Below are positions 5,345 to 61,455 of a stretch of DNA of 64,000 nucleotides, in pieces. Within the stretch, counting starts at the first letter, position 1; each line of letters begins with the position of its first letter. The stretch comes from Bacteroides zhangwenhongii (GTDB taxonomy: Bacteria; Bacteroidota; Bacteroidia; Bacteroidales; Bacteroidaceae). The notes beneath the pieces are model-generated. The model searched no databases. It was not told the DNA's origin and was given only the letters and a program-made list of their open reading frames with translations. The translations under genes were made by a program, and so were the position numbers. The DNA is taken from assembly GCF_009193325.2 (NCBI RefSeq), contig NZ_CP059856.1:3906001-3970000 (forward strand), written 5' to 3'.

Positions 5345-5564
5345 TTGTACAACTGTTATACTTCCATTGTCCCATAACCATTTGTACATTAACGTGCCGA
5401 TATTGTTAACTTCCTACGGCCGTGGTGACTTCTTCCCACAGCCGTGACGAGTTCCTACCACAGCCGTGGGAAGATCTTGTCACGGCCGTGACGAACTAAA
5501 GATACCGGTACTTTAGTGGAATTATACCGGCATCCCAACATAAGTATACCAGCTACTCTCCCCA
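5345..5564. repeat. 22-bp-phased array of short palindromes
   Basis: The word GCCGTG occurs at 5419, 5441, 5463 and 5485, exactly 22 bases apart each time. Each lies in a small palindrome: ACGGCCGT at 5416-5423, two imperfect CACAGCCGTG copies, and the perfect GTCACGGCCGTGAC at 5480-5493. The phasing continues downstream with TACCGG at 5503 and 5525 and TACCAG at 5547, again 22 bases apart. Upstream, TTGT starts at 5345 and 5367, also 22 apart, with the palindrome GTTGTACAAC at 5344-5353. No protein reads through it convincingly. A second array with the same spacing and unrelated sequence is at 25411-25530. Function unknown; it could be a row of protein-binding sites or a folded RNA. Confidence 0.7.
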
Positions 5565-5805
5565 TAAAGTCCCACTTGATTAATCTTAAAACAAGGCATT
5601 TGACAAGAAATCAAGGCTGACAATAAAAATGCATATCTTTTACTTTCAACCTATTATCAGCATCTATTGTCATGCGGTATAAAATTGGTATTCAACCACT
5701 TAAATATCATCCTGACAGATTGACAATAAAAAGAGCACAAATCGTTAAGTATAAGAACTTCCAGAGTGCATTTCAACATAAACTAACCTTTATAATTACA
5801 TAATC
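5565..5805. other. Gene-free AT-rich stretch, no recognised element
   Basis: This stretch joins the palindrome array to the end of the second PUL operon. The word GACAATAAAAA occurs twice (about 5619 and 5721). I see no convincing gene, terminator or promoter in it. Confidence 0.4.
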
Positions 5806-21259: not shown

Positions 21260-24200
21260 ATGAAAAAGCTACTATGTATTTTAGTCGTTTCTATACTTTC
21301 GCAAGTCATTTTTGCGGCTCCAAGATATCATTTCTCCAATTTATCCGTCAAAGACGGGCTATCGCAGTTGAACGTCACCTGCATATACCAAGACAAACAG
21401 GGATATATGTGGTTCGGCACACGCAACGGGCTGAATAAATTCAATGGGAACTCTTTCGAGATCTTCTGGAATCACGCCGACGACCCTCATAGTATCAGCA
21501 GTAACACTATTGCCTGCATCACCGAAGATGCAGAAGCCAACTTATGGATCGGTACGGAAAACGGCTTAAACAAACTCGATAAAAGCAGGAATAGTTTCAA
21601 ACGGTACTACCTTACGCACAAGGCCGGTTCAATGAACAATAAAATCCTATCGCTTTACCTTGATAAAGAGAATATATTATGGGTAGGAACTCTTTCAGGT
21701 CTCTTCATATACGAACCCGAATCGGACAATCTGAAAGCGGTTCCCATTAAAGAGTTGGTTGATAATTCCATCAGTGCCATTCTGGAAAAGGACAACGAAC
21801 TGTATCTCGCTTCCAGCAGAAACGGACTCCTGATTTACGATAAACAGAAAAAACGGGTAGCCCGTTCTTTCCGGACGGATTCCAAAATCCTGCCCATCAG
21901 TTCCAATTACCTCAAGGATATCTATATCGACAAGAAAGATAATATATGGCTGGGGACTTATAAGGACGGTGTATGCGTCATTAAACACGATTTGTCGGAA
22001 ATAGTGCATTATAATACCTCAAACGGATTATCCAACAATAATATCCGTTGTATCAAAGAATCTCCTTCGGGCGAAATGTGGATAGGGACTTTCGACGGAC
22101 TCAACATCGTCAATCCGGTGACAAGCCGAATCTTGACATACAAATATGGCGAACAGGGAACACTGACCCATCACTCTGTGTATAGTATCCTTTTCGACAG
22201 AATGCAGACCATCTGGATCGGGACTTATGCCGGAGGAGCCGACTATTACAATCCTTACGGACATCTGTTTGACTTTTATAATCCGGGAGTTGCCTTAAAT
22301 ACCAATCCTGGTATCTTAGGTCCATCCATTGAATACAACGGAACACTGTATATCAGCTCCGAAGGTGGCGGTTTAATTGCTTTCGATCTGGAACAACAGA
22401 CTTTCCAGCAATATAAGTTACCACAACATACCGGAACTTCCCCCCAAAGTATATTCAAAACCATCTATTTGGACGGAAACCGTATCTTATGTGGAACCGG
22501 TCAGGGAGAAGTGTACGAATTCAACCTGCATTCCCAGCAATTCTCCTTATTTTATCAGACAACAGACCGCAGGCCTATCTATCACATCAGCCGAAGCCGG
22601 TCGGGACATATTATTATCGGTGGTATCAGCATGGGCGAGGGGCTTGTATTTCTCTCCAATGACGGAACACATACCATACAAACCGAGTTTCCGGTCAAAG
22701 GTAAGGGCAACGTCCATTTTTCACACGTGATCTGCGTCTGCGAAGTGGATAACGATGTTTACCTTATCGGAACGAAAAGCGACGGGCTATTCTGCTATGA
22801 CAAAATCAACCGTACGCTCATTGCTTACGACCGCACAAACGGACTGGCAGCAACATCTATCAGCAGCATTCTGAAAGACCGTTCGGGAAGGATTTGGATT
22901 AGCAGCGTCGACGGAGGACTAAGCGAGCTCTCTCTTTCCACCGGGAAATTCACTACCTACAACGAAAATAACGGCCTGTTGAACAACCAGGTGTGCAAAG
23001 TGGTGGAAGGAAATGACAATACATTGTGGCTCACTACCTTGAATGGGATTTCTAACCTTGATCTCCGTACGCGGAACATCATCAATTACGGACAGGAAAG
23101 CGGCATACAGGTACAGGAATTCTCACCTTGCGCAGGTATCCGCCTTTCGGACAACCGGATATTCTTTGCAGGCAACAATGGTTTTACGCTCTTCAATCCA
23201 AGTGATATAATCACTAACCCTAATATTCCCCCCATCATTCTGGATAAACTGTACATCAACAACACTTTGATACAACCGAACGATAAGGCGGGTATTCTCA
23301 AAGAAAGTATTTCCACCCAGAAAAAGATTGTACTGAAATATAATCAGACGAATATAATGATTGAATATTGTGCGCTGAATTATATCTTTAACAATAAAAA
23401 CCAATATGCTTATAAGCTGGATGGATTCGATTCCGATTGGAATGAAGTAGGAAGCCGCCGTACTGCCTATTACACCAACATTCCGGCAGGCACTTATCAT
23501 TTCGTGGTGAAAGGCTCCAATAATGACGGTATCTGGAATGAACAAGGAACAGCTCTGGAGATTATCGTCCTGCCGCCATTATGGAAAACTTGGTGGGCTT
23601 ATTTGTTTTACAGCACTATTGCCATCGCCTTGATTGCCTTTATCATCCGCTACTTTACCGAGAAAAGACGTTTACAGAATAATATCCGATTGAAACAAAT
23701 GGAAGCGGAAGTACACGAGGAATATTACCAGGAACGTAATCGTCTTTTCACCAACTTTTCTCATGAGCTTCGCACACCGCTGACATTGATTATCGCTCCT
23801 CTGGAAGAATTTGTCAAACGTACGGATCTGGCTGAAGATATCCATTATAAGATTCAGTTGATGCTACGCAATGCCCAACGCCTGTTGCGCATTGTCAATA
23901 ATCTGATGGACTTGCAGAAGAATGAAAGCGGAACAATGAAACTGCAAGTTTCGGAGAATGACATCGTTAAGTTCACCCATGAAGCAGTAGCTTCCTTCCA
24001 GGATCTGGCATTATATCGGAACATCCATCTGAAATTCAAGCATTCCGTTGACCGGCAACCGCTGTGGTTCGACTGGAATATGTTGGAGAAAGTGTATTTC
24101 AACTTCCTCTCCAACGCTTTCAAGAATGTGCCGGACGGCGGCTCCGTACTGGTAGAGATGGACATAAAACCTCTTTCCGAACTGAGTATTTTTGTACCCG

Positions 24201-25333
24201 CCAAGTTGAATAGATATAAGAATGATGAAATAAGATATCTCACCGTATCTATTCAAGATAACGGTGTAGGCATCGCTCCCGATGAATTGGAAAAGATTTT
24301 CCGTCCTTTCTACCAAGTAGCGCAGAACGAACATTCCAAATCGGGAACAGGCATCGGACTGAGCTTGAGCAAAGCGATCATAGAAATGCATCATGGAATA
24401 GTATGGGCGGAAAACGCAATCGGTTCAGGAGCGATTTTCAGGTTTGTTCTACCCATTGATAAGAGCTGTTTTGCTCCCGAAGCAATTGTAGAATCCACTG
24501 ATAATGCGTCTGTATCATTCAATGTGGAACTTCCTGACACAGCTTTCGAACCAGAGAATTCGGGAAAGAAGCAATCGACTATTCTTGTGGTAGAAGATAA
24601 TCGCGACCTGAACAATTACATCTGTTCCTGCCTCGCGGATAAATACAATGTAGTGGGTGTCACCAACGGTGAGGACGCCCTTTCCAAAGCCGTCAACCTG
24701 CTTCCTAACCTGATCATCACCGACTTGATGATGCCCAAGATGAATGGCATCGAACTTATCCAAAGACTGAAGAAAGATATGAATACCAGTCATATTCCTA
24801 TTATTATGGTAACTGCCAAAACCGGTACGGATGATATCAAGGAAGGGTATGCCGCAGGAGCTGATGAGTACATCACAAAGCCTTTTGATGCCTCTATTCT
24901 GAAAATAAGAGTGGATAATCTTATTCAAAGTCGCGAGAAGTTGAAAGACCTTTACAGCAAGAACTTCTCCCTCGAATCGCTGGGCGTAGATGTAACTTCC
25001 GTCGACGAGAAATTCATGCAAAAGTTATATGCCACTCTGCAACAGAACATTTCCAATTCCGATCTGAATCTTGATGCGTTCTGTAAAGAGCTTGGACTGA
25101 GTAAATCAAACCTTTATCGCAAAATCAAGCAGATCACCGGTTACTCACCAAATGAGTTCATCCGCAATTTCCGACTGGAAACTGCCGCGAAAATGCTAAA
25201 AGAGACCGATATGACGATTACGGAAGTATATTGCGCCGTTGGCTATAATAGCTTGGCGTATTTCTCGAATTGTTTCAAGGCGTTGTACGGAATGTCACCT
25301 ACTGAGTTCAAGAATAAGCAGGAAGGGAAATAA
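21260..25333 (+). CDS. Hybrid two-component system regulator (sensor-kinase-receiver-AraC)
   Basis: A 1357-residue single-chain regulator. It has a signal peptide, a periplasmic two-propeller sensor made of Reg_prop repeats (YMWFGTRNGLNKF, NLWIGTENGLNKL, RIWISSVDGGLSEL), a Y_Y_Y domain (YAYKLDGFDSDWNEVGSRR), a transmembrane segment at ~780-805, a histidine kinase with phospho-acceptor His835 in FSHELRTP, an ATPase domain (NFLSNAFKNVP, DNGVGIAP, GTGIGLSLSKA), a receiver with Asp1155 in ITDLMMPKMNG, and a C-terminal AraC-type DNA-binding domain (LGLSKSNLYRKIKQITGYSP). All catalytic motifs are intact. It is divergent from susC and is expected to activate both this operon and the enzyme operons at 31207-52371. 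The ligand would be an oligosaccharide of the target glycan. Confidence 0.95.
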   Translation: MKKLLCILVVSILSQVIFAAPRYHFSNLSVKDGLSQLNVTCIYQDKQGYMWFGTRNGLNKFNGNSFEIFWNHADDPHSISSNTIACITEDAEANLWIGTENGLNKLDKSRNSFKRYYLTHKAGSMNNKILSLYLDKENILWVGTLSGLFIYEPESDNLKAVPIKELVDNSISAILEKDNELYLASSRNGLLIYDKQKKRVARSFRTDSKILPISSNYLKDIYIDKKDNIWLGTYKDGVCVIKHDLSEIVHYNTSNGLSNNNIRCIKESPSGEMWIGTFDGLNIVNPVTSRILTYKYGEQGTLTHHSVYSILFDRMQTIWIGTYAGGADYYNPYGHLFDFYNPGVALNTNPGILGPSIEYNGTLYISSEGGGLIAFDLEQQTFQQYKLPQHTGTSPQSIFKTIYLDGNRILCGTGQGEVYEFNLHSQQFSLFYQTTDRRPIYHISRSRSGHIIIGGISMGEGLVFLSNDGTHTIQTEFPVKGKGNVHFSHVICVCEVDNDVYLIGTKSDGLFCYDKINRTLIAYDRTNGLAATSISSILKDRSGRIWISSVDGGLSELSLSTGKFTTYNENNGLLNNQVCKVVEGNDNTLWLTTLNGISNLDLRTRNIINYGQESGIQVQEFSPCAGIRLSDNRIFFAGNNGFTLFNPSDIITNPNIPPIILDKLYINNTLIQPNDKAGILKESISTQKKIVLKYNQTNIMIEYCALNYIFNNKNQYAYKLDGFDSDWNEVGSRRTAYYTNIPAGTYHFVVKGSNNDGIWNEQGTALEIIVLPPLWKTWWAYLFYSTIAIALIAFIIRYFTEKRRLQNNIRLKQMEAEVHEEYYQERNRLFTNFSHELRTPLTLIIAPLEEFVKRTDLAEDIHYKIQLMLRNAQRLLRIVNNLMDLQKNESGTMKLQVSENDIVKFTHEAVASFQDLALYRNIHLKFKHSVDRQPLWFDWNMLEKVYFNFLSNAFKNVPDGGSVLVEMDIKPLSELSIFVPAKLNRYKNDEIRYLTVSIQDNGVGIAPDELEKIFRPFYQVAQNEHSKSGTGIGLSLSKAIIEMHHGIVWAENAIGSGAIFRFVLPIDKSCFAPEAIVESTDNASVSFNVELPDTAFEPENSGKKQSTILVVEDNRDLNNYICSCLADKYNVVGVTNGEDALSKAVNLLPNLIITDLMMPKMNGIELIQRLKKDMNTSHIPIIMVTAKTGTDDIKEGYAAGADEYITKPFDASILKIRVDNLIQSREKLKDLYSKNFSLESLGVDVTSVDEKFMQKLYATLQQNISNSDLNLDAFCKELGLSKSNLYRKIKQITGYSPNEFIRNFRLETAAKMLKETDMTITEVYCAVGYNSLAYFSNCFKALYGMSPTEFKNKQEGK

Positions 25334-25410
25334 ATTCATAACCGGTATGGAAATGAACTAATCTTAGTTTTCCTAAAACCTAATTGGTAGTATGCAATGA
25401 TTTAATACTC

Positions 25411-25530
25411 GTTATACATAACTTTATTCGTCTGACTATAGTTGAACTTTCGTCTGACAACGGTTATTCTTTCGTCTAACTATAGTCAGACGAAAAAGAA
25501 ACCGTTGTCAGACGAATAAAATCATGCATC
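25411..25530. repeat. 22-bp-phased array with interleaved inverted repeats
   Basis: TTCGTCT starts at 25427, 25449 and 25471, exactly 22 bases apart. The 17-base arm A (25427-25443) is a perfect reverse complement of 25478-25494, and arm B (25449-25465) is a perfect reverse complement of 25500-25516. The order A-B-A'-B' is the topology of a pseudoknot rather than a simple hairpin. Small palindromes flank it at the same phase: GTTATACATAAC at 25411-25422 and ATGCAT at 25524-25529. It lies between two convergent transcripts (regulator gene ending 25333, pseudogene ending 25584). It may act as a two-way transcript end or as a protein-binding array. Confidence 0.75.
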
Positions 25531-25583
25531 ATCAACCATAAATTCATGAAGCATTAAAAATAATCTTATAACATTACTACTCT

Positions 25584-26828
25584 CTATTCTTTCATCATGA
25601 TTACATTATCCGGAACAGAAAAGCCAATAGGTTGACGCTCAGCATCAGTGATAGATTCGTCACCTTCAGTCTCATACCAAATACCAAGTGCCTCATTCAG
25701 CTTCCAATGGATCTTTGTAGGAGATAATAGATGGATATACCCGCCACTAATACCCTTGCCGCCAAAATGTTTTTTACGTTGGTCATAAAACCAGACACTT
25801 ACATAATTGGGATCAATCTCATTTAAAGTATACGAATGATTAGAAGCCCATATATACAGATTATCAGGACGAGGTTCTTTCGAAGAATCCCAGTACACAG
25901 GAAGTTCACCCCAATAATTTTCTATTATTTTTCCTTTTACGGAAAGATAATAGCCGCCATAAAGTCCGTTATATATGTCAGACCTCCCGATTTTCTGCCC
26001 TTTTTGTAATCTTATCTTAAAAATAGTATCGCTATTTTAATAAACCCAAGTACCGACATAAGCATCCAGATTCTTTGTTGGAGATACGCTTTTTTGTGGT
26101 TGCGACTTCTCCTCGCATTTTTCCATCATTTCGTAATAAGTTTCCTCATAGCAATGGTCTCTCTTACTACCACTACGAGCCATCAGTTCTTTCGTATTCT
26201 CATCAATGGGGGTTATCTTGCCCACAATCTTACCGTCCCGATACTTCCAGCCGTTTATCATACTACCGTTCAACTTAAAGAACATCACTCTGCCGTCAAA
26301 TTTCTTGTCGCGATAAAGGTAAGTATTACGATTTATCCGCTTCTTTTTCAGATACTTGTAGGAACCGACAAATATCGAAACAAAGCTGCGCACCTGTCCG
26401 GTCTCCAAGTTCTTCAAGATAACCAGATGAGTCGAGTTGCGAAGTTTATTCTTCGCATGCAATTCGTCAAAATGAAGGCGGGTCTCCTCATCAACAATCA
26501 TATGCCGGGCCTGAGTCAGGATAGGCATCTGAACTACCTCATAACGTCCACGGTTACTCTCGGTGGCATGCGACCACTTGGGTTTAATGAATGCAGGCAT
26601 ATCATCATTGCCGCCGAAACGTGTATTGAAACAAACCACCGAATCATAATGCGACTCATACCATTGCCGGGCTACGGAAACGGTCAACTGCTTGTTATGT
26701 TTACGGGATTCACGATGATCTACCGACCGAACTCCCCACTTCTCTCCACCATAGCAGACAGACAAGCTGCCGATGCCCAACAATGCCAATGATGCAAACA
26801 ATAAATATTTGCGCTTACTTACTTTCAT
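25584..26828 (-). pseudogene. N-domain gene fused to lipocalin-like copy 1, broken by a nonsense codon
   Basis: One reading frame of 415 codons interrupted by TAA at 26037-26039. The first part (263 residues) has a signal peptide (LALLGIGSLSVCYGG) and a conserved secreted N-domain (WYESHYDSVVCFN, IVDEETRLHFDEL, FFKLNGSMINGWKYRDGKIVG) also seen in the gene at 27549-28881. Near 26097 it switches to the lipocalin-like sequence (KSVSPTKNLDAYVGTWVY), then the stop. Copy 3 of the lipocalin gene has CAA where this copy has TAA, so a single C-to-T change created the stop. The remaining codons (25584-26036) match copy 3 almost exactly, which suggests the stop is recent. A 263-residue truncated product may still be secreted. 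Confidence 0.75.
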
Positions 26829-26931: not shown

Positions 26932-27670
26932 AAGGTACTTCGAAGGATTTTTATGATATTGATACTCTCTATTCTTTCATCATGATTACATCATCCGGAA
27001 CAGAAAAGCCAATAGGCTGACGCTCAGCATCAGTGATAGATTCGTCACCTTCAGTCTCATACCAAATACCAAGTGCCTCATTCAGCTTCCAATGAATCTT
27101 TGTAGGAGATAATAGATGGATATACCCGCCACTAATACCCTTGCCGCCAAAATGTTTTTTACGTTGGTCATAAAACCAGACACTTACATAATTGGGATCA
27201 ATCTCATTTAAAGTATACGAATGATTAGAAGCCCATATATACAGATTATCAGGACGAGGTTCTTTCGAAAAATCCCAGTACACAGGAAGTTCACCCCAAT
27301 AATTTTCTATTATTTTTCCTTTTACGGAAAGATAATAGCCACCATGAAGTCCGTTGTATATTGCAGACCTACCGACTTCTTGTCCTTTTTGTAATCTTAC
27401 CTTAAAAATAGTATCGTTATTTTGATAAACCCAAGTACCGACATAAGCATCCAGATTCTTTGTTGGAAGTACGCTTTTTTGTCCCATAAGGCTACCAGTC
27501 GTAACAACTAACAGTAATAAAATAATTTTTATTGTTTTCATAATACATTTATTTACAGTCTTTATCAATCAATTTATTGTTCTCATCCAAATCTTTGGCA
27601 ATCCAGTTCTCGAAATTATCATCAATATGTTCATCTTGCATGGGACGAAACATTACAGATAGCCCTGCCT
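26890..27670. repeat. Segmental duplication, copy 2
   Basis: This block of about 780 bases is nearly identical to 29749-30529. It covers 79 bases of noncoding DNA, the whole lipocalin-like gene and the last ~40 codons of the JAMM-like gene. The shared noncoding flank shows that DNA, not only protein, was duplicated. Confidence 0.75.
26969..27541 (-). CDS. Secreted lipocalin-like protein, copy 2
   Basis: A 190-residue protein with a signal peptide (ILLLLVVTTGSLMGQ) and a beta-rich mature part: DAYVGTWVYQNNDTIFKVRL, GGYYLSVKGKIIENYWGE, YVSVWFYDQRKKHFGGKG, IHWKLNEALGIWYETEG. The GTWxY start and alternating strands suggest a lipocalin-like or DUF6705-like barrel; the family name is a guess. The ATG at 27541 is chosen because it opens the signal peptide and lies 7 bases after the JAMM-like stop, as in copy 3. 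It differs from copies 1 and 3 at several residues (for example PDDV versus PDNV, NNDTIFKV versus SDTIFKI), so it is the older branch. A partner, inhibitor or immunity role for the neighbouring secreted protein is inference only. Confidence 0.7.
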   Translation of the reverse strand: MKTIKIILLLLVVTTGSLMGQKSVLPTKNLDAYVGTWVYQNNDTIFKVRLQKGQEVGRSAIYNGLHGGYYLSVKGKIIENYWGELPVYWDFSKEPRPDNLYIWASNHSYTLNEIDPNYVSVWFYDQRKKHFGGKGISGGYIHLLSPTKIHWKLNEALGIWYETEGDESITDAERQPIGFSVPDDVIMMKE

Positions 27671-54824: not shown

Positions 54825-54887
54825 CAATAAATCAAGAATGAAGAACTTTTCCCAGTCTTCATTCTAAATTCTTAATTCTTCATTAAA

Positions 54888-61375: not shown

Positions 61376-61440
61376 GTGTTTTTCATAGTATTAGATTTAA
61401 GGTTAACAAAGGTTGGGTCAAGGCGTTGACCCTTTTTTTA
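61376..61440 (+). ncRNA. Candidate small RNA of about 65 bases
   Basis: A complete promoter (-33 at 61341, -7 at 61364) is followed within 70 bases by a perfect intrinsic terminator: GGGTCAA (61415-61421), 4-base loop, TTGACCC (61426-61432) and seven Ts. No credible ORF lies between. The body contains TAGTATTAGATTTAAGGTTA, a word I associate with recurrent Bacteroides intergenic transcripts, from memory only. It is convergent with the EamA gene ending at 61456. Confidence 0.6.
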
Positions 61441-61455
61441 TGTCCGTACGGCTCA

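Follow-up and report, generated by a model that had tools for sequence, protein, structure and literature searches.

A 22-bp-step dyad array in Bacteroides zhangwenhongii, a predicted binding array of an HU-family protein with a winged helix

Introduction

What is the role of a short run of evenly spaced dyads lying between two convergent genes of Bacteroides zhangwenhongii? The array occupies positions 25427-25516 of the window, i.e., of the whole stretch of 64,000 nucleotides analyzed here (NZ_CP059856.1, positions 3,906,001 to 3,970,000), and the genome to which the window belongs is designated G000 below. An earlier note on this DNA had described two such arrays of different sequence, had proposed from them a class of elements set by geometry and had linked this class to PUL regulators. 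Short arrays with a two-turn step are a feature of plasmid iterons and partition sites (R6K, pPS10, F, ParR/TubR-type centromeres), where they are read by an adjacently encoded DNA-binding protein that often controls its own gene. The literature searched, in which subscription journals and bioRxiv preprints were few, contained no description of 22-bp dyad arrays in Bacteroides, which is not proof of their absence.

The Array and Its Surroundings

The array is built of five half-sites (Table 1), with 22 bp between those on the same strand and a single change from TTCGTCTGAC in the third. Its four dyad centres (25438.5, 25460.5, 25482.5, and 25504.5) all keep the 22-bp step and give a span of 88 bp, the cores at 25460.5 and 25504.5 being weak palindromes when taken alone. 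The two 17-base inverted repeats reported earlier are exact and interleaved, repeat A (25427-25443, TTCGTCTGACTATAGTT) being the reverse complement of 25478-25494 and repeat B (25449-25465, TTCGTCTGACAACGGTT) that of 25500-25516, and TTCGTCT does start at 25427, 25449, and 25471. Because the third TTCGTCT also makes a near-perfect palindrome of 68 bp (arms 25449-25482 and 25483-25516, 88% complementary), the A-B-A'-B' arrangement is one of several possible pairings. The flanking palindromes were placed correctly, with centres at 25416.5 for GTTATACATAAC and 25526.5 for ATGCAT, but the former is self-complementary at 10 of 12 positions only; TATGCATAA-like flanks similar to it are present in other copies. 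The array is not a chance product: the central palindrome pattern, with up to three mismatches allowed, occurs once in the window and in none of 100 shuffles, and RNA folding of a 131-nt stretch gave values 8.2 (plus strand) and 10.7 (minus strand) standard deviations below those of 200 shuffles.

Table 1. Window coordinates of the array, its parts, its neighbours and the related features.
Feature	Position	Strand	Description
Array	25427..25516	.	Five 10-bp half-sites TTCGTCTGAC, 22-bp step, read from sequence
Forward half-sites	25427-25436, 25449-25458, 25471-25480	+	TTCGTCTGAC; third copy TTCGTCTAAC
Reversed half-sites	25485-25494, 25507-25516		Reverse complement of TTCGTCTGAC
Pivot palindrome	25471-25494		Third and fourth half-sites face each other
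Left flank palindrome GTTATACATAAC	25411..25422	.	Imperfect; one 22-bp step ahead of the first dyad centre
Right flank ATGCAT	25524..25529	.	One step past the last dyad centre
Left neighbour, hybrid two-component regulator	21260..25333	+	Convergent with right neighbour
Right neighbour, short DUF6705 protein	25584..25898	-	Convergent with left neighbour
Stretch common with the B. finegoldii copy	25361..25563	+	Identical at 179/203 bases
End motif AAATGAACTAAT	25351..25362	+	Left end; inverted-end motif of two G021 copies
Second window array	5410..5490	.	CACGGCCGTG-type units, 22-bp step

Neither neighbouring gene, the two-component regulator or the DUF6705 gene, shows evidence of taking part. 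Two DUF6705 proteins are encoded near each other (25584-25898 and 26969-27568), the match of the first being confined to the profile's second half. Six Rfam matches were obtained in 25300-25650, every one of them under the gathering score; the sole match at gathering level in the window is FopS (61376-61442, plus strand, 78.1 bits), a Bacteroidetes family of paralogous sRNAs.

A Class of Arrays Set by Geometry

The array at 5345-5564 is, as had been claimed, unrelated in sequence to the one described above, the 22-bp step being common to both. Its CACGGCCGTG-type units (Table 1) represent a second dispersed family, with 6 loci in G000 and members in 3 of 41 genomes, and they are related to an array upstream of the HU-wHTH gene G000:C1:3672499 (see below for this family). 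Some arrays are composite: past the CACGGCCGTG array, a TACCGG / GCCGGTACTT motif keeps the 22-bp step in the window (5500-5565) and in L090 (3136-3246), one base out of register with the CACGGCCGTG array at both loci.

The proposal of a sequence-diverse class set by geometry is borne out by a dyad scan blind to sequence and by a periodicity scan. Across 864 kb of G000, dyad centres lie 11 bp apart at 12 places and 22 bp apart at 7, as compared with a mean of 0.78 for other distances and with 1 (11 bp) and 0 (22 bp) in three shuffled copies summed, i.e., dyads at 22-bp spacing are enriched over shuffles regardless of their sequence. Direct periodicity outside ORFs, scanned in samples of six Bacteroides genomes, was most often of period 22 (20 of 49 loci), with periods 23 and 21 at 5 loci each, whereas two genomes of other families had 6 loci and 100 kb of E. 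coli had 1, none of them of period 22. Because no other period is as frequent among non-coding tandem repeats in the sampled Bacteroides, a class defined by geometry can be said to exist. A further scan used offsets picked near 11 and 22 and hence favours these, a choice of which the periodicity scan is free; in the two other-family genomes it gave 2 and 5 loci near these offsets versus 3 and 4, and 1 and 3, at control offsets, none of the loci being an array by eye. The array families appear mutually unrelated in sequence.

The suggested association with convergent genes also stood: with ORFs called crudely, 17 of 33 arrays outside ORFs lie between convergent genes, compared with 63 of 333 gaps of at least 150 bp (p = 8e-5). 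Two period-21 simple-repeat loci among 36 were excluded from this count, as well as from the promoter-motif, array-matching, and covariation counts given below. Another class of hairpins consists of 7-nt simple repeats (GAGAATG, AGTTGAT) with a period of about 21, found at window positions 54836-54884, L089 4633-4716, and L140 5838-5966, and seems to have no relation to the dyad arrays. In a TATGAGAAAT family, present at L129, L134, L140, L144, and L153, spacings of about 21 bp mix with others of about 32 bp, and 23-bp TTCCCA..TGGGAA arrays often lie nearby.

The link to PUL regulators did not hold, as 65 flanking proteins gave no common neighbour. The commonest families among them were the TonB plug (4), two carboxypeptidase-regulatory domains (3 each), the OMP barrel (2), and HU-HIG (2), and the PUL regulators beside arrays are incidental. 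What the earlier note had missed is that both window arrays belong to dispersed families and that their recurrent partner is a HU-wHTH gene.

Association With HU-wHTH Genes

HU-wHTH stands here for HU-HIG proteins (Pfam PF18291, by which membership was assigned) with a C-terminal winged helix. New HU/IHF clades were reportedly named in a 2017 paper. The Pfam entry, as shown, gives no DNA target for HU-HIG, and no targets for these proteins were found in the same searched literature, with its few subscription journals and preprints, although this again does not prove absence; in the accessible parts of that literature, the term HU-HIG yielded one mention of such a protein in a table and otherwise unrelated papers. 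An AlphaFold model contains an HU-like part and a C-terminal winged helix (mean pLDDT 87.3), and the relative placement of the two domains is uncertain because pTM is 0.52. The best PDB matches in a fold search were three chains of 4fmr, a Bacteroides vulgatus DNA-binding protein, and HU and IHF chains as well as winged helices such as TubR and AspA were matched below the 0.001 level; a sequence search for solved relatives gave nothing significant. All six proteins tried match NCBIfam HU_rel, three of them above the cut-off.

One HU-HIG gene is preceded by an array of the CACTnnAGTG family, and this array aligns without indels in 11 genomes (alignment made without L283). HU-HIG matches number 26 in G000 and 34 in another genome, G021, and 19 and 24 of these, respectively, were counted, the remainder being classical HU-sized, second genes, or others; the G000 gene at 2447847, whose frame is cut, was left out of the upstream count, though a 22-bp array stands above it. 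The 43 counted genes comprise 22 with a winged helix, 19 with a glycine-rich tail bearing EAPDP, and 2 of a 165-aa type. At a score below -5, an array of period 21-23 is present within 300 bp upstream of 20 of the 22 HU-wHTH genes. Control ORFs, each with 100 bp or more of gap upstream, show one in 8 of 431 cases, and at a score below -6 the respective numbers are 18 of 22 and 6 of 431. The -5 cut-off was chosen after a first look at -6.5 and 600 bp, in which 8 of 208 control ORFs had an array, two of those 8 being themselves HU-HIG genes. At the same -5 level, the array was found upstream of 1 of 19 glycine-tail genes and of both genes of the 165-aa type. The 22 HU-wHTH genes are not independent, because L325 is almost a duplicate of L326 and many of the genes are orthologous between G000 and G021; the array counted for G021 L323 is doubtful, being unlike that of its orthologue, and one of the two genes that miss the cut-off, L324, shows four rows by eye. 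To the best of the literature searched, both the arrays and the contrast between winged-helix and glycine-tail members of HU-HIG are new observations.

The step itself tracks the protein lineage, being 21 in all three MEEMPD proteins, 23 in both proteins of the 165-aa type, and 22 in most others. Tandem repeats of period 20 lie upstream of 4 of the 19 glycine-tail genes (G000 837404 and 1336320; G021 L331 and 427949) and perhaps represent another ruler length.

A further sample consisted of 13 HU genes of about 198-217 aa from records of a plasmid collection, their winged helix being judged by similarity to the queries. These records are contigs of B. finegoldii, Phocaeicola massiliensis, and Parabacteroides distasonis that are labelled as plasmids but are chromosome-like, together with a plasmid of Bacteroides sp. 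CACC 737; the sample leaves out H18, H23/H28, H24, H25, H26, and H31, H11 is identical with L199, and H22, H33, and H34 repeat sampled places. The best of the periods tried (18 to 26) was 21 or 22 in 13 of 13, and 11 of 13 scored below -5, including 9 of 9 Phocaeicola and Parabacteroides genes; the two above -5 are the B. finegoldii gene L341 and the plasmid gene L348.

Array sequence and protein sequence vary together. Among 23 proteins, protein identity correlates with array similarity (Spearman 0.43, and 0.44 within genomes; 0 of 2000 permutations), with simple orthology contributing to the correlation between genomes. Four related G000 paralogues that start with YDLYETP or YDLFETP have arrays with the common frame TTCGTnnnAC, in which nnn is CTG, ATG, TTG, or TCC. 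Of 11 arrays in a G000 sample that have no HU-HIG gene immediately adjacent, 5 could be matched with a collected HU array and the other 6 could not; three of the latter are of a TAAAGC type, a family also found about 530 bp upstream of two glycine-tail genes. Comparison of these sequences thus shows an upstream array of 21-22 bp step, usually of four units, at most of the HU-wHTH genes examined, and an array sequence that follows the lineage of the protein.

The Cognate Gene of the Window Array

The cognate HU-wHTH gene of the window array is G000:C1:2201749-2202363 on the minus strand, with its home array at 2202460-2202555. The exact central palindrome is found in 12 of 158 genomes of the genus, and all 9 genomes that encode the cognate protein (at least 73% identity) are among these 12, as compared with 3 of the 149 others (p = 1.6e-12). 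In these three genomes (G009, G043, and G145), no protein of at least 73% identity was found, some first-look candidates there being unscored. In 9 of 9 genomes with the protein, an array of the window family lies 87-98 bp upstream of its gene. The window array is, judged by its sequence, a scattered copy of the array belonging to this gene.

TAnnTTTG is the Bacteroides -7 promoter motif. Among 24 HU genes of G000 and G021, 19 have it within a 75-bp interval around the start of the array, versus 16 of 215 background intervals, and therefore the home array probably begins just downstream of a promoter, a position that suggests self-repression. Among arrays away from HU genes, the promoter motif reads into the array in 3 of 32, and these scattered arrays must act otherwise than by self-repression, if at all.

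Dispersed Copies and Mobility

A search with 25380-25560 gave 15 matches in G000, which represent 8 distinct loci, and members of the window array family were matched in 5 of 41 genomes. Among named genomes, a scan returned 28 stretches, mostly from Bacteroides (B. xylanisolvens, B. acidifaciens, B. congonensis, B. finegoldii, and others), and the few from unrelated bacteria (Streptococcus, Paenibacillus) are taken as chance. The 41 Bacteroidales arrays of the family, from which four pattern matches that are not arrays (L096, L107, L113, and L120) are excluded, span exactly 88 bp in 32 cases, 110 bp in 2, 66 bp in 3, and 44 bp in 4, and they sit in divergent and tandem gaps as well as in convergent ones. 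Phage records gave no match to the window array.

The copy in B. finegoldii is shared with the window well beyond the array (Table 1) and has another annotated neighbour, a TonB-type gene on one side; the core changes between the two copies fall in mirrored pairs (units 1 and 3; units 2 and 4). In two G021 copies, inverted AATGAACTAAT ends lie 242 bp apart, and the window shows the left end AAATGAACTAAT only, the right end not being seen there. The stretch shared with B. finegoldii, 25361-25563, probably makes up most of a MITE-like element. The two G021 copies, L002 and L006, belong to one element and carry the segment running from half-site 2 to half-site 5 in opposite orientations. No target-site duplication was clear by eye, and a search of 6 genomes with the end motif returned only the two G021 pairs and no autonomous copy or parent transposon. 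Mobilization by a RAYT of the REP/BIME kind was considered and rejected: PF01797 has no match in G000, G021, and G051, and 4 of the 14 genomes searched have one.

Comparison With Known Systems

One of the nearest parallels is PG0121, an HU-type protein of a Bacteroidales species that, according to the accessible part of its account, binds an upstream inverted-repeat region in preference to a control 77-mer and affects transcription of the operon. It is described there as HU-like, resembling E. coli HU, and as having a single repeat region, whereas a four-unit 22-bp array or a set of paralogues with private sequences does not appear in that part. BrickBuilt of P. gingivalis, as presented in the portion of the source available, is also a dispersed intergenic element with inverted ends and a unit of about the same length (23 nt), and some of its copies lie near DNA-binding genes, e.g., PF00216 beside BrickBuilt_14 (PMC4596501). 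It is, however, a single direct-repeat family in which an element contains 1 to 22.8 copies (PMC4596501), whereas the arrays described here form many unrelated dyad families, mostly of four units, the step being 22 in the window. REP/BIME elements are, in the available part of their description, short intergenic palindromes in several copies, and TTCGTC contains the CGTC tag of one REP superfamily, but their units of 20-40 bp, often in dimers, follow no fixed 22-bp array (PMC3733652). With iterons and partition sites, the arrays share a two-turn step and, as predicted here, reading by the product of an adjacent gene, and both TubR and AspA appear in the fold search; they differ in that many private arrays are present in one chromosome and in that the units are dyads instead of plain direct repeats. 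Replication or partition genes were not seen beside the arrays checked.

DNA Site, RNA Structure or Mobile Element

An RNA role would place long hairpins in the HU-wHTH mRNA leader and, at other loci, in 3' regions, where they would control translation, decay, or termination. The folds are indeed long and stable, the home arrays fall between the promoter-like motif and the start codon, arrays are enriched between convergent genes, and two-sided changes affect 11 of 44 pairs on the whole-array axis versus 0-4 on the other axes tried. The mispairs speak differently. In 35 HU-gene arrays, taken in mRNA sense on the best axis, G-U and A-C mispairs are about equal (109 versus 122), and in the orthologous array set they number 14 and 46, opposite to the expectation for RNA. 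As G-U mispairs are not in excess over A-C mispairs, selected RNA pairing is disfavoured, and a pseudoknot or other RNA role is not supported in the HU-gene leaders. Across the dyads of the orthologous set, 85% of cells are paired for the half-sites but only 5% for the two central bases, and the centres of the dyads do not covary; conserved half-sites with free central bases fit a dimeric protein site, and this pattern, together with the lack of a G-U bias, points to recognition of DNA. Conservation of the orthologous arrays is barely above that of their flanks (0.80 versus 0.77 and 0.75), and the whole-array covariation could result from copying between arms, from a symmetric higher-order complex, or from cruciform extrusion. 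A simple scan of 25300-25700 gave no intrinsic terminator and no U-tract, and under looser settings the gap yielded a single weak hairpin on the minus strand (-9.2 kcal/mol), not placed within the array. Terminator-like hairpins are present in 10 of 17 convergent gaps with arrays versus 30 of 46 without (gaps of at least 150 bp), which does not speak for a terminator role. Moreover, copies occur in divergent and tandem gaps too, and hairpins do not need a fixed 22-bp step. We regard the RNA reading as quite improbable.

The arrays could also be no more than portions of MITE- or REP-like mobile palindromes that some transposase, or replication, has spread, with the copies near HU-wHTH genes representing insertions or captured ends and not binding sites. 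The presence of several loci per genome, the inverted ends (242 bp apart) and the inverted middle segment seen in two G021 copies, the different gene beside the B. finegoldii copy, and the precedent of BrickBuilt, a MITE with 23-nt repeats in the accessible part of its account (PMC4596501), all agree with this. It leaves unexplained, however, the step common to unrelated sequences, the contrast between 20 of 22 HU-wHTH and 1 of 19 glycine-tail genes, and the tracking of the protein by array similarity, while PF01797 was not found in G000, G021, and G051 and the end motif led to no autonomous copy in 6 genomes. As a full account we consider it unlikely; it is partly complementary to binding, since mobility of the copies and binding at the home site are compatible. 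Descent from plasmid replication, with the arrays as relics or decoys of iterons that likewise have a step of about 22 bp, is very improbable. Several Bacteroides Rep_3 genes do adjoin perfect or near-perfect 22-bp direct repeats (L240-L244 and others), but these are plain direct repeats while the array units are dyads, three arrays compared with 72,556 plasmid records matched only chromosome-like B. finegoldii records, Rep_3 (PF01051) has no match in G000 or G021, and the association with HU-wHTH genes is much stronger.

Proposed Role and Outlook

The explanation we prefer is that the window array is a predicted binding array for one member of the HU-wHTH family, and we regard this as probable. 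The winged helix would read the half-sites, and HU-fold dimers would occupy neighbouring dyads side by side, the step corresponding to the spacing of adjacent dimers. Just past the home promoter, a filled array would block or bend the DNA, and the protein would thereby limit its own synthesis; we lean slightly toward this picture of the home site. At the scattered copies, carried by the MITE-like element, the same complex might form a local barrier or anchor, which is a more doubtful suggestion. The covariation on the whole-array axis (11 of 44 pairs) counts against the proposal, as it is not predicted by simple operator binding. So do the three genomes in which the array was found but the protein was not, the two HU-wHTH genes that miss the cut-off, the six G000 arrays that match no collected HU array, the rarity of the promoter motif at scattered arrays, and the small margin of conservation over the flanks.

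A broader view, which we put forward tentatively and which may well prove wrong, is that gut Bacteroidales possess a chromatin with private codes: about ten or more HU-wHTH paralogues per genome would each read their own array of 22-bp step, mostly of four dyads, at their own promoter and at several scattered, movable sites. If true, specificity would diverge with the winged helix while the HU body sets the step, and new wiring would arise when an array-bearing element moves. By the usual account, HU hardly discriminates between sequences; were each paralogue to have a private array, a single cell would contain many versions of an architectural protein addressed by sequence. Such a system would provide targets for a large family of unexplained DNA-binding proteins of Bacteroidales, would account for part of the intergenic repeats in this order, and would offer a natural set of protein-array pairs from which to learn how the sequence of a protein determines that of its site while the spacing stays constant.
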